A DNA stretch of 64,000 bases, taken from the IMG/VR virus record IMGVR_UViG_3300008262_000024, positions 28,843 to 92,842 of that record; one strand, given 5' to 3'. The DNA comes from a virus. Within the stretch, counting starts at the first letter, position 1. Each line of letters begins with the position of its first letter. Made by a program: the position numbers and the translations under genes. The notes below the pieces were generated by a model. That model searched no databases and was not told where the DNA came from. It saw nothing but the letters and a program-made list of their open reading frames with translations. Of this stretch, positions 3,001 through 62,121 are shown piece after piece.

Positions 3001-6000
3001 AACTTTCTAATGCTGCATATGATACTGCTAATTCCCAATCATTATTAAACAAAGATTTAGATATTATTTCTTCAGATATACCAATAGCTGTTTGTTCATA
3101 AATTGTTTCAGCATACTCACCAAATCCTTCTACCTTTTTATAAGTTTTATTTAAACCATACTCTTTAAACATTTTAATGTCTTCAGAGATTACACTTTGT
3201 TTTAAATAATTTGTTATTTTATCTGCAATATACTTGTCAGTAGGTTGAAGTGTTCCTTTAACTAGGTCTTTAAAATCATTGTAAGGAATAATTTCTGAAA
3301 AGAATGATTTTACTTTATAGGTTTTTTCATCCTTCAAAGTTCTATCCATATATGAATAGTCACCTTTTGGTTTATTTAATTCATCTATCAAATAACCTGT
3401 AATAACATCCTTAGCTTGACTTACAACATTGTTAATGTTAGTTTCTGGTGTTAATATACTACTGTTTGTACCTATTTTATAAACAGGAAATAAACTTCTA
3501 TCTGAATGTTTTTGAGATGGTGATAGACCACTTAATGTCATATTAAGATTTAAAGAAAATAAGTCACCTTCTTTTAAATCTGAAACATGTGTTGCTTTAT
3601 CTAAGGTAACATCTTTTAAACCTTCAACAATAGCATACTCTACTTTTTCACCATTATAAATTTTTTGTATCCATCTAGAATTTTCACTTTGATTATTTTT
3701 AAATATATGTGGAAGAGCTTCTTTTAAATATTCTATTCTATAATCTCTTTTTTCTATTGGATCAATAGAATCATCATTATTAACTAAATCTATATAATAG
3801 TTAATAGTATCAGCAATTATGGTTTGATAAGTATTAAGGTTAATAAGATATACTGGTTTACCATCAATGTTCATAAACTGAAGTTCAGTATTTTCAGATT
3901 TTGATTCAGCAATAACATTTATTATTTTATTTAGTCTTACTGAATATTCACCATCATATATTTTAGAAACCTTATCTACTTTTACTAGATTTAAAATCTT
4001 ACTAACTTCATCTTTAATAATATTTAAACCTTCTTCACTAACATCAGATAATGATCCAAGTCCTAAGACTTCAAACTTTTCTTCTAAACTTACATTAGGA
4101 TCTTTTAACATTGCTAAAAAGTTAGCATCTTTATCACCTTTAAGTTTAAATCCTGTAAACTCTGAATAGTTCTTTTTAAATTTAACTTTAGCTTCATTTA
4201 ACAATGTGCTAATATAATTTTCTTTATTAGCAGGAATAAAAACCATGTTTCCATTCTTTAATAATCCTGTATAGAAATTATATTTAGTTAATGCAAACTC
4301 TGATACAAAAGATCTTCTTAAATCTAAGATTGTCTTTACATCATCAGTAATAGGTTGATTGTTATCAATTATATCATCAACATTAATATCATTTAAATAA
4401 TCTAATAAATCATTAAACTGAGGATATTTTTCAGATAACTCTTTAATCTTATCAATAAATATATTAATATCTGCAGGTAATGTAGCTAATGAATTCTTAA
4501 GAATGTTAACATTATTGTTCCAACTACCTGCTTGAACAATGTTAAGTACATTTGATCTCTTTAGACTATAGTCTTTATTTCTATCAGGTAATGCACTAAT
4601 TAAAAGCTTAATAGCTTTAGGCATGCTGTCTTTAGTATTAAACTCAATAGCTGGAATAATATCAAGATTAGATCTACCTATCTTATCACCTTCTTCTTTT
4701 AAATCCTCTGCAGTTCTATCTTCAGTAAGATTATCAGTTTCAGTTGATAGTTTATCTGGTTTAGTAATAATGTCTGAAGTCTTTTCTTCTAAAGTTTTTA
4801 TATTAAAAGAACTTAATCTACTTAAATGTTCTTTAATTAAACTAACAAATGCATTATCAGGATCTTCATTAAATGCTTCTAAAATTTCATTAGATTCAAT
4901 TTTATTAGATATTTCAAGATCATCTAATACTTGATTAATTACAACATCATATACATTTTTAATTTGATCAGAAGTATAATTGCTTTCAGCAATATCAAAT
5001 ATTCCATTTACAAACTCTCCATTAAATTCTTTAGTAAAATTCTTTATAACACTTGGAGTAAATAATATTTTAGCAAAATAATAATCCATTGCAAATAACA
5101 ACTCATGTTTTTCAGTAGCTGTTAATTCTCTACTGTTAATAGATATTGCTCTATTTTTTTCAACAGATGTATTCTCAACAAGCTTTTTAGCTTTAGAGTA
5201 TCTACCCTCATCAATAAGTTTATAAAGTTCTTTAATGTCTTTAGGTGAAGCTTTTAAAAGTTTATCAAAGAAATTAATTATATCCTGATATATCTTTTCA
5301 AATATGTTAGATGGCTTAGGTTTAGCTAAATTGTAATCTCTAAAATCTTCTGCAAAGTATTCTTCTATTAAATCATCTTCTGTAAGATCTGGATAACTCT
5401 TTGTAAGATATTGTATTTTAGATTTATAATCAGGATCTGATTTAAATTGATCTAACAATCTAGATCTTTCTTCAGGAGTTAAATAAAAATTCCATACTCT
5501 ATGAAATGCTTCATGATACTCAGTACCTTCTTCAAATGATTCTGACAAAAGTATTTTACCATCTTTAAGTATTTTACCAAAAGCATTACCATCAACTAAA
5601 CCTTGTACTCTAACAATTTCATTAGCTGACATACCAAGTTTTTCTCTTAAGTATTTTTCAGCTTTTGTAAAATCACCTTTTTTATATTCTAAAGGTTTTG
5701 ATAATTTATTTTTTATATTTGTTTGAAGAGTTAATAATGCATTTTTCCAGTCATTATATGTATTCATAGACTGAAAATTAATTTCTCTTTTATCTACAAA
5801 GTCTTTTACTTTTTCTTGAGCTGCTTTAGATATAAAAGGTTCATTTAATACTATAAATCCTTCTAAATCTTCTCCTATAACTTTTTGTTCTTCTCCATAC
5901 TTATTTATAAAATAAGATTCACCATCTTCTTTTTTATAATAATAATTTTCATCAGAAATACCTTCTAATTTTAAATATGCTTTAAAAGCTTTATAATGAT

Positions 6001-58057: not shown

Positions 58058-58578
58058 TACTCGTTAAATTCACTATTTACTTGTTTATCACCTCTAATCT
58101 TAACAGCAGTATCTTGTTTTTCAGCCTTAACTGCAGCCTCTAAACTCTTATACTGTGATACAACCTTACTCATAGAATCAATAATCTTTAAACTAGCTGC
58201 AGTACTATCTGCATCTATTTCACTTTCATCAAGAAACCTAGAAAATTCAAATATCTTATTCTTAACACTATTAAGTAAAACCTCTAAAGGACTCTGTTTT
58301 AACCTTTTATATATTTCGCAGGCTTGTTTAACCTTGTCTGATGGTTCATAGTCCTTTTGTCCGAGTACTTCTTCCTTAATGGCTTCTGTTCTTTTTTCTT
58401 CTGAATAGTTGTTATAAGGAGAATTGAAATCACATAAATGATAGATAAACTTAAAATCTGTATATGCATTAATTTTTGTTTTAGATTTATCTTCTTTCCA
58501 TATCTCACTAAATATATCTATAGTGAGTATCTCAGGTGAGATAACTACCTCATTATCTTTTAAGTCAAATACTTTCAT
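58057..58578 (-). CDS. Possible small terminase subunit
   Basis: 173 residues, unrecognised, overlapping the terminase gene by 1 base. It is helical, with a C-terminal coiled segment (LKIIDSMSKVVSQYKSLEAAVKAEKQD). The place directly before the large terminase is where small terminase subunits lie, and helical oligomerising proteins of this size fit. No DNA-binding motif is clear, so this is a guess from context. Confidence 0.4.
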   Translation of the reverse strand: MKVFDLKDNEVVISPEILTIDIFSEIWKEDKSKTKINAYTDFKFIYHLCDFNSPYNNYSEEKRTEAIKEEVLGQKDYEPSDKVKQACEIYKRLKQSPLEVLLNSVKNKIFEFSRFLDESEIDADSTAASLKIIDSMSKVVSQYKSLEAAVKAEKQDTAVKIRGDKQVNSEFNE

Positions 58579-58973
58579 TACTTAAGAAACTTCAACTTAT
58601 AGATAGTAGAGTATGTAAGACTAGCTAATTCATCAATTTGATTCTTAAGGTAATCTTCCTTAAACACTTCTCTTGATGCCTCAACATACTTAGCAAACTC
58701 TTGAATATATTCCATAAAATCCAATGGCTTAACAGACTTAATTTCAAAGTTTACAATACCATATTTACCTTGATAACTTTCTACAAAGCCATCTGCTAAA
58801 TCAAGTAGTCCATCATAAAATCCACCAATAGCTGTGTGTGCTGCATAAGCACCTGGACCTTTTACTCTAAGATGTTCAATATGTGCAACATCTCTTGCTT
58901 CAAACAATCTACCAATAAACTTACTTGGTGAGTTCATTGGATTGCTCATTAATTTTTCTTTTAAAGAGTTCAT
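58578..58973 (-). CDS. DUF5856-like phage protein
   Basis: 131 residues. The stretch SKFIGRLFEARDVAHIEHLR, then YAAHTAIGGFYDGLLDLADGFVESYQGK, matches my memory of DUF5856, an all-helical, ferritin/Dps-like phage family. Its His, Glu and Asp placings could bind metal or DNA; no function is known. The long start overlaps the upstream gene by 53 bases. Methionines at residues 9 and 13 would cut this to 29 or 17 bases and cannot be excluded. Confidence 0.6.
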   Translation of the reverse strand: MNSLKEKLMSNPMNSPSKFIGRLFEARDVAHIEHLRVKGPGAYAAHTAIGGFYDGLLDLADGFVESYQGKYGIVNFEIKSVKPLDFMEYIQEFAKYVEASREVFKEDYLKNQIDELASLTYSTIYKLKFLK

Positions 58974-60186: not shown

Positions 60187-60389
60187 TGTTTACCATTAAT
60201 ATAACTTACAATTAAATCTCTTTCTTGAGGAGTTAAATCTTTCATCAACTTATCTTGACCTATCTCTCTGACAATAGATTGTAGCTGATAGAAGTTAATC
60301 TTACCTTGAGCAAGGTATATATTCAATTGTTGTTTAATAGTATTAGTATTCATTTGCTGCTGTAGGTTACCTTCCAATGTTATATTCAT
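60183..60389 (-). CDS. Hypothetical helical protein, 68 aa
   Basis: Unrecognised, Gln-rich and helical (NLQQQMNTNTIKQQLNIYLAQGK). LTPQERDLIVSYINGK at the end resembles a short helix-loop-helix. Overlaps the GroES-like gene by 4 bases, so it is translated directly after it. Confidence 0.45.
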   Translation of the reverse strand: MNITLEGNLQQQMNTNTIKQQLNIYLAQGKINFYQLQSIVREIGQDKLMKDLTPQERDLIVSYINGKQ

Positions 60390-60679
60390 AACAACACTTT
60401 ACATGCAACATCAGCTTCTCTAAACAGCTGATACTTTTGTTTACCTCCATCATGAGTTTTACCTTCAAAACTTGTAGGCATTGAATGTGGAAAAAACATT
60501 ACTCTATCTCCTACTTTGTAAAGCTCAACTTGGCTTCCTACTGCAACAACAACATCACCATTATATTCTTCTACATCAGAAGTTTGTGTACCATTAGGTA
60601 AGTATACTCCAGTAGATGTTTGTTCTAGTTCTTTGTACTCAATTAAAATACCTTTAGGGTGTGGTTCATACATAATCAT
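60386..60679 (-). CDS. GroES-like co-chaperonin
   Basis: 97 residues, normal for the Cpn10 family. Near the start PKGILIEYKELEQTSTGVYLP matches the GroES pattern (P..RV.V...E....GI.LP). GDVVVAVGSQVELYKVGDRVMFFPHSM is the conserved barrel (G.VvaVG...  vkvGD.Vlf). The YQLFREADVACKVL end matches the final strand. Part of the mobile loop region is different (GVYLPNGTQTSDVEEY). Phage co-chaperonins such as T4 gp31 work with host GroEL to fold the capsid protein; the same role is inferred because it is the first gene of the late block. Confidence 0.85.
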   Translation of the reverse strand: MIMYEPHPKGILIEYKELEQTSTGVYLPNGTQTSDVEEYNGDVVVAVGSQVELYKVGDRVMFFPHSMPTSFEGKTHDGGKQKYQLFREADVACKVLL

Positions 60680-61140: not shown

Positions 61141-61377
61141 ATGAGCAAGCTCACAAATTTATTAAAAAGCAATCTTGAAAGTAGTGCAGAACAACTAGTT
61201 GACATTACTAAGGATAACGTTGCTAGTGTAATCTTGAAGGATAAAATCTTCGCAATTCTTTGCGAGAACTTTGATGTTGAACCAACATTTACCGAGATTA
61301 CAACAAGTAAGGGTAAAACCCTTATTGTTGTTAGCAATTCAACAGTTCAGGAATTGAAGAAAGCGTTGCTTTCTTAA
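61141..61377 (+). CDS. First early gene, hypothetical 78 aa
   Basis: Unrecognised. MSKLTNLLKSNLESSAEQLVDITKDNV start, then a helix-strand end (EITTSKGKTLIVVSNSTVQELKKALLS). The frame is open to a GTG at 61066, but that extension runs over the palindromic control site; the ATG at 61141 is preferred. It is followed by a strong terminator, so it may form its own short transcript. Its place as the first early gene suggests host takeover or regulation. Confidence 0.6.
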   Translation: MSKLTNLLKSNLESSAEQLVDITKDNVASVILKDKIFAILCENFDVEPTFTEITTSKGKTLIVVSNSTVQELKKALLS

Positions 61378-61387
61378 TTCCTTCACA

Positions 61388-61419
61388 GAAGAGAAAGGGC
61401 TTCGCCCTTTCCTTCTTTT
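61388..61419 (+). terminator. Strong intrinsic terminator
   Basis: GAAGAGAAAGGGC and GCCCTTTCCTTC form a 12-bp stem with one mismatch and a TTC loop, followed by TTTT. It begins 10 bases after the stop at 61377. Confidence 0.85.
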
Positions 61420-61555: not shown

Positions 61556-61589
61556 TATAAAATAACAAACAGTTGTTGATTTTACTTAT

Positions 61590-61665
61590 AGCTTTGATAA
61601 AATAGTTTAATAAACTAATTACTATTTATAGTAAGTTTAATTGCCTGAGAAGCAATATCAAAGTT
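61590..61665 (+). ncRNA. Cloverleaf-like four-way RNA junction
   Basis: An outer stem CTTTGATA/TATCAAAG (61592-61599/61656-61663) can extend to ten pairs with a G-U. It encloses three hairpins: TAGTTT/AAACTA (61603-61617), TTACTA/TAGTAA (61619-61634) and TTGC/GCAA with a 7-base loop (61641-61655). It has a tRNA-like outline, but the last loop is CTGAGAA, not the T-loop, and the middle loop cannot hold an anticodon. It is therefore not a working tRNA. Confidence 0.5.
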
Positions 61666-61687
61666 TTAGGTGTAAATTAAAAACTAA

Positions 61688-62044: not shown

Positions 62045-62121
62045 AGTTGTAATATTTCAAGACTCCTTTCTTAATGAAATAGTTTAAGAATAGGGAAAAT
62101 GGAAGGTCTGTTATTACAACT
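62045..62121 (+). repeat. Long-range stem enclosing a hairpin
   Basis: AGTTGTAATA (62045-62054) and TATTACAACT (62112-62121) form a 10-bp stem. Inside lie AGAC/GTCT and TTCTTAA/TTAAGAA. The stem closes exactly at the first base of the TGA stop that opens the following start-less frame. Confidence 0.5.

Follow-up and report, generated by a model that had tools for sequence, protein, structure and literature searches.

A conserved cloverleaf RNA in a hypervariable island of a freshwater phage, a candidate exchangeable domain of modular early-transcript RNAs

In T4-type phages, conserved intergenic elements named PeSLs, which combine a promoter with a stem-loop, mediate gene shuffling among related phages, according to the passages on them in PMC4503421 (Arbiol 2010; Comeau 2014). 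Phages also encode the elaborate RNAs GOLLD and ROOL, which have no known function; GOLLD is often longer than 800 nt and varies in its 5' part while its 3' part is conserved, and both are in Rfam and often lie near tRNA islands (PMC12286853). Here we describe a four-way junction RNA, CLV, and two RNA scaffolds, S1 and S2, that carry exchangeable tips. Like PeSL cassettes, they are conserved intergenic modules at sites of shuffling between related phages; they differ from the cassettes, as those passages present them, in comprising a number of different RNAs that form multiloops and pseudoknots, in that the RNA tips themselves are swapped, and in belonging to an unrelated phage group. GOLLD and ROOL are large and in Rfam, whereas CLV and the scaffolds measure ~75–200 nt and fall outside it.

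Flaviviral-type exonuclease-resistant RNAs are three-way junctions in which a hairpin loop pairs with the tail 3' of the closing stem. S1, but not CLV, resembles them in having a three-way junction with loop-tail pairing just 3' of the closing stem; its sequence and the hairpin involved are different, and the likeness is one of predicted topology only. With tRNA (RF00005) and viral tRNA-like structures CLV shares the cloverleaf outline and acceptor/T-arm-like dimensions, but it lacks their sequence signatures and is missed by tRNA models. The Hatchet ribozyme (RF02678) resembles CLV in neither sequence nor structure and is absent from the DNA analyzed, but in relatives it occupies the CLV slot downstream of a pseudoknot, PK. 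A search of the open-access literature, with subscription literature outside its scope, found no description of CLV, S1 or S2. In our assessment the structured RNA CLV is new, and scaffolds with exchangeable tips are a new form of shuffled phage regulatory modules; the arrangement could be more than a variant of such modules.

The source is a 92.8-kb freshwater virus record of IMG/VR, of which one stretch of 64,000 nt (the window) was analyzed. Its genome carries the crAss-like markers phrog_6681 terminase and phrog_6547 portal, and its best record matches were gut crAss-like phages at ~32% identity; judged by these homologous genes, it is a crAss-like phage (Crassvirales). A terminase search of GTDB genomes found no bacterial host, and no copies of the region were found in named phages and plasmids. 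CLV is a noncoding cloverleaf domain of 78 nt (61589–61666, + strand) with the following parts.

61592–61598/61657–61663, + strand: P1, the outer stem, CUUUGAU paired with AUCAAAG, 7 bp, up to 9 with flanks
61603–61617, + strand: P2 hairpin (61603–61608/61612–61617), 6 bp, loop AAU
61619–61634, + strand: P3 hairpin (61619–61624/61629–61634), 6 bp, 4-nt loop
61635–61639, + strand: J34, GUUUA, unpaired and the same in all three CLV sequences
61640–61656, + strand: P4 hairpin (61640–61644/61652–61656), 5 bp, 7-nt loop CUGAGAA, abutting P1

The first-pass annotation had described an outer stem of 8–10 pairs around three inner hairpins with no wasted bases. The minimum free energy fold of 61590–61665 (+ strand, −14.2 kcal/mol) indeed places three hairpins within an outer stem, and the homologs show the same; the last point was inexact, as 4 nt in J12 and 5 nt in J34 are unpaired. 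P1/P4 and P2/P3 can stack in the fashion of the tRNA outline. An alternative pairing, P2*, was calculated to be ~1 kcal/mol worse in all three CLV sequences, and in this energy model J34 could take the 3' strand of P2 from its partner, giving a P2/P2* switch.

The annotation had also held that the outline by itself makes chance unlikely, which our data contradict. Across the window, a sliding scan found 58 distinct sites at which the best fold contains a multiloop of at least three branches, and the energy of CLV is unexceptional among them. In the shuffling test that the annotation had proposed, CLV outperformed most dinucleotide shuffles (4 of 200 were as good; z = −2.36), but energy alone is weak evidence in an AT-rich window where folds with three branches are frequent. 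Folding energy was thus rejected as proof of CLV, since many window sites fold as well.

Comparison with other phages was more informative. A terminase-based search yielded 54 related loci, and two of them contain a CLV homolog (L015:3949–4026(−) and L030:1383–1460(−)) at 80–81% identity to the window copy; the three genomes come from three different metagenomes. A covariance model, R1, of the kind proposed beforehand, scored CLV at 98–101.5 bits. The structure had been predicted from the window sequence before these homologs came into view, and each homolog folds alone into it. All 24 pairs are retained in the three sequences (72 of 72 pair cells with standard pairs), and six show compensatory changes, one in P1, one in P2 and four in P3; this number was matched by 1 of 500 shuffles, and slid controls all gave 0. 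P1, present in all three, has a single C-G/A-U exchange; P2 is invariant except for a U-A/A-U exchange at its basal pair; P3 has both-sided exchanges in 4 of 6 pairs and loop variants UUUA/UUCG; and P4 has an invariant stem under loops CUGAGAA/CUGAAAA/CUAAGAA. One of the P3 exchanges, U-A to G-U in L015 and L030, favours the + strand as the RNA. On sequence comparison, and not on energy, CLV is confirmed as a genuine structured RNA with the four-way cloverleaf junction first proposed for it. That it is a chance fold in AT-rich noncoding DNA would agree with its ordinary energy, but six compensatory and no broken pairs across three metagenomes make this extremely improbable.

The comparison set is three sequences from incomplete metagenomic contigs. 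No CLV beyond these was found by the covariance model in 43 related virus records, by three different pattern scans of IMG/VR, or in GTDB genomes. A second model match, at 4959–5003, was discarded as chance, since it lies inside a 2293-aa ORF and is without P2 and P3.

Given the outline, we compared CLV with tRNA. Its dimensions are tRNA-like, as the annotation had noted: P1 has 7 bp, its first and last bases span 72 nt, P2 and P3 are 1 nt apart, J34 corresponds to a 5-nt variable region, and P4 is a 5-bp/7-nt arm stacked on P1 with 0 nt between, as in an acceptor/T-arm. The same annotation was right that T-loop and anticodon are missing. The T-loop motif UUCRANY and the D-loop GG are absent, the loops being CURARAA and AAU; the P3 loop has 4 nt in place of a 7-nt anticodon loop; and no 3' CCA is encoded, the next bases being UUU or ACA. 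ARAGORN detected no tRNA at CLV, its relaxed modes gave inconsistent calls that were off register, and RF00005 had no match at E<=10 in the window or in the L015 and L030 CLV. These findings rule out that CLV is a tRNA.

CLV might instead mimic tRNA, as had been suggested, with the 12-bp P1/P4 stack and the 7-nt loop read by RNase P, the CCA enzyme or a tRNA-cutting defence nuclease. The geometry is consistent with this, and the tips of two other loci that carry S2 parts, L118 and L031, are unrelated to CLV in sequence and have a similar outline with a last hairpin of 5 bp and 7 nt near the clamp. Against it stand the missing elbow-forming loops and other tRNA signatures, the negative ARAGORN and Rfam searches, and a P1 that exceeds 7 bp in the window and in L015. 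We consider such a decoy of tRNA enzymes quite unlikely, and rank it third, behind a tip that contacts a host factor and an element of leader processing.

The surroundings of CLV bear on these two readings. Genes run leftward left of ~60.7 kb and rightward right of 61.1 kb, and CLV lies in noncoding sequence 215 nt downstream of the first rightward gene. The modules and ORFs near it are as follows.

61141–61377, + strand: first rightward small ORF, 78 aa, function not assigned
61393–61419, + strand: terminator-like hairpin past this gene, read off the sequence, with equivalents in L015 and L030
61455–61499, + strand: PK, an H-type pseudoknot, GUGCU..AGCAC with a covarying second stem and an AU-rich third loop
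61683–61735, + strand: module D, a 5'-UTR hairpin ending just ahead of a start codon
61742–61975, + strand: ORF of 77 aa, unrelated to the ORF at the same place in L002
61980–62030, + strand: module E, a hairpin immediately past the stop codon

A near-twin genome, L002, matches the window at 98.6% over 12.8 kb up to 61063; past this point nearly everything is exchanged, and a hypervariable island begins in which small ORFs are mixed with structured noncoding modules (the pseudoknot and UTR-like hairpins). L002 has no CLV, module G sits between its PK and D, and a different ORF lies between the same D and E. Stem-loop modules thus stand at recombination boundaries as in PeSLs, near-identical phages sharing the modules and differing in cargo. 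Two genes by the divergent region, for a DUF5856/phrog_858 protein and a GroES-like co-chaperonin, lie at 58578–58973 and 60386–60679, the second of them being a stable anchor by which the CLV site can be located.

The modules are themselves conserved. Each of the 15 relatives with sequence at this site has a single PK. Of 13 distinct PK sequences, 11 show a clear second stem, the window has a weak one and L010 has none; the stem's own partners outpair all 5000 permutations. Compensatory changes affect 7 of 15 pairs in module D (12 sequences) and 3 pairs in module E (11 sequences). Module H (L030:1150–1386(−) and an equivalent in L023) is a noncoding stretch of ~210–230 nt, 90% identical between the two, with a 17-bp closing stem that starts ACUUUGAUAACAUUA; it lies just upstream of unrelated small membrane-protein-like ORFs.

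The window, L015 and L030 have in common the order small first gene, terminator-like hairpin, PK and CLV. Past CLV the window continues with D, L015 with G and L030 with H, and every one of these modules is also found in phages that lack CLV. With a different 3' neighbour in each genome, CLV has no constant gene to regulate, which disfavours the one-gene version of the regulatory junction that had been proposed. Between L015 and L030, 93.5% conservation starts exactly at P1 and stops 5 nt past it, and the sequences on either side are unrelated.

The slot after PK may point to a different role. Three relatives carry Hatchet ribozymes there, ~100–160 nt on (L011:1107–1241(−), L025:1089–1244(−) and L031:3954–4085(−)). 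The Hatchet model had no match in the window or in the L015 and L030 CLV regions, and no genome in view has both elements (3 vs 3). Because the ribozyme shares the slot, the main rival to a host-factor tip is that CLV acts in cis on the leader, defining or protecting the early mRNA end as a nuclease stop, as a site of nuclease processing or as a self-cleaving RNA of a kind not yet described. Modules D and E, which hug start and stop codons, fit such a role. However, the numbers are small, the CLV helices are uninterrupted, whereas catalytic cores typically have internal loops, and L002 has no CLV despite its 98.6% identity. Leader processing is possible but, in our judgment, unlikely. Further Hatchet ribozymes of early islands are at L124:46–208, L160:3088–3239(−) and L172:8591–8727.

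CLV as a tip that contacts a host factor draws on the scaffolds. A CLV-model match in L160 (25 bits, on the strand opposite to the genes) was rejected as a homolog; a common clamp explains the match, which led to S2. This scaffold consists of AACUUAAUAACUUCCCAAGUUGUUGAGGGCACCAGUUUC, a clamp, a tip, the clamp again and GUUUUAGGUGUAAAACAC, and it occurs in 12 loci besides the window, mostly with unrelated tips (L021, L118, L127, L129, L138, L160, L173, L176, L189, L198, L209 and L210); in L210 a 6-nt loop stands in for the tip, and L031 has clamp and tail only. Its hairpin-loop pseudoknot covaries (CCC/GGG, UCC/GGA, CCU/AGG). The corresponding parts of the window are these.

61563–61591, + strand: diverged S2 5' half, AATAAC..AGTTGTTGA, with the 12-nt spacing to the CTTTGAT clamp seen in other phages
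61583–61588/61667–61672, + strand: S2 lower stem
61664–61676, + strand: S2 3' half, TTTTAGGTGTAAA, its clamp identical to the S2 of L118, L160, L176, L189, L209 and L210

In the window, the clamp and the 3' flank AUCAAAGUUUUAGGUGUAAA match S2 letter for letter, and AGUUGUUGA is found equally far 5' of the clamp, so that CLV is here most simply read, at the level of sequence, as the tip of a diverged S2. The CLV of L015 and L030 are not on S2 and have other surroundings.

A second scaffold, S1, was reached starting from module G. It is a predicted three-way junction with a loop-tail pseudoknot and a hypervariable tip, laid out as UGCAC, a 5-bp hairpin with loop UUCCC, CAGUUGUAAUA, the tip, UAUUACAACUG, GUGCA and a GGG tail. 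One pattern scan of IMG/VR gave 108 stretches, and the strict set has tips of 36–121 nt. Homologs of window proteins are carried by 30 or more of the 108 loci, 23 of these having the terminase. Only 1 of 82 scaffold-like matches lies inside an ORF of at least 80 aa. Among 46 distinct canonical scaffolds, P2 of S1 is paired in 230 of 230 cells with 53 double changes (0 of 500 shuffles), the loop-tail pseudoknot has 10 double changes (0 of 500), and the closing stem has 5, reached by no shuffle. The 11-bp clamp is nearly invariant, and covariation is uninformative on it because its sequence hardly varies. The tips of 82 distinct elements fall into 67 families by sequence, with a mean folding z of −1.5 against mononucleotide shuffles, and several families are found on different scaffold variants. 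S1 copies lie at L002:4419–4506(−), L015:3773–3877(−) and L048:640–717(−) and in L116–L223; L048 is a distant crAss-like relative whose terminase is 26% identical. None were found in named phages and plasmids. The window has this trace of S1.

62046–62121, + strand: S1 clamp copy GUUGUAAUA../..UAUUACAACU with its own tip, outer stem lost

Rfam 15 gave zero matches in the window at gathering score and none to S1 or S2 elements in 10 loci. The near-invariant S1 clamp, and module edges that coincide with swap points, would also suit inverted repeats acting as a recombination or replication site in single-stranded DNA, with the RNA incidental. But covariation in PK and in the loop-tail pairing requires one strand to act as RNA, and the P3 exchange with other G-U pairs fits RNA from the + strand; we regard a DNA-level site as very unlikely.

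The structure and modularity of CLV are well supported, and from the fold, covariation, sharp module boundaries and swapping that we observed we infer a function. We propose, with confidence evenly balanced, that early transcripts carry a modular RNA of which CLV is one exchangeable apical domain, a tip that a stem scaffold holds up, probably to contact a host factor. CLV would be transcribed with the rightward early genes as a noncoding structured RNA and would fold independently into its four-way junction, the scaffold merely stabilizing and displaying it. Recombination in the conserved modules on either side, within the island beside the divergent promoter, would swap each tip as a unit. 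The working surface would be the conserved unpaired AAA, AAU, GUUUA and CURARAA, which may bind a host RNA-binding protein or nuclease in trans, for takeover or counter-defence.

Several observations favour the apical-domain reading: CLV is always the next module after PK, with D, G or H following; G replaces it between the same PK and D anchors in L002; S2 and S1 carry many other tips; and its six compensatory pairs accompany sharp L015/L030 conservation edges at P1. Counting against it, there are three CLV sequences, two of them off S2, and the S2 5' half in the window has diverged. Ribozymes, too, have variable peripheral arms, and an arm need not be the working part.

Phage early regions have been mined for small anti-host proteins, and structured RNAs there have been largely overlooked. 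Covariation shows that IMG/VR phages have two or more RNA scaffolds not described before, together with many tip domains, one of them a cloverleaf. More tentatively, crAss-like and related aquatic phages may possess a modular RNA arsenal, in which conserved pseudoknotted scaffolds show interchangeable, independently evolving domains such as CLV against varying host factors. If tips act on host factors, phages exchange RNA domains as they do anti-defence genes; even if they serve leader processing only, they are new RNA families and clear recombination anchors in one of the most abundant phage groups.

In a phage contig of the same group, a tmRNA gene match adjoins a tRNA-Arg (L019:657–1038(−)).
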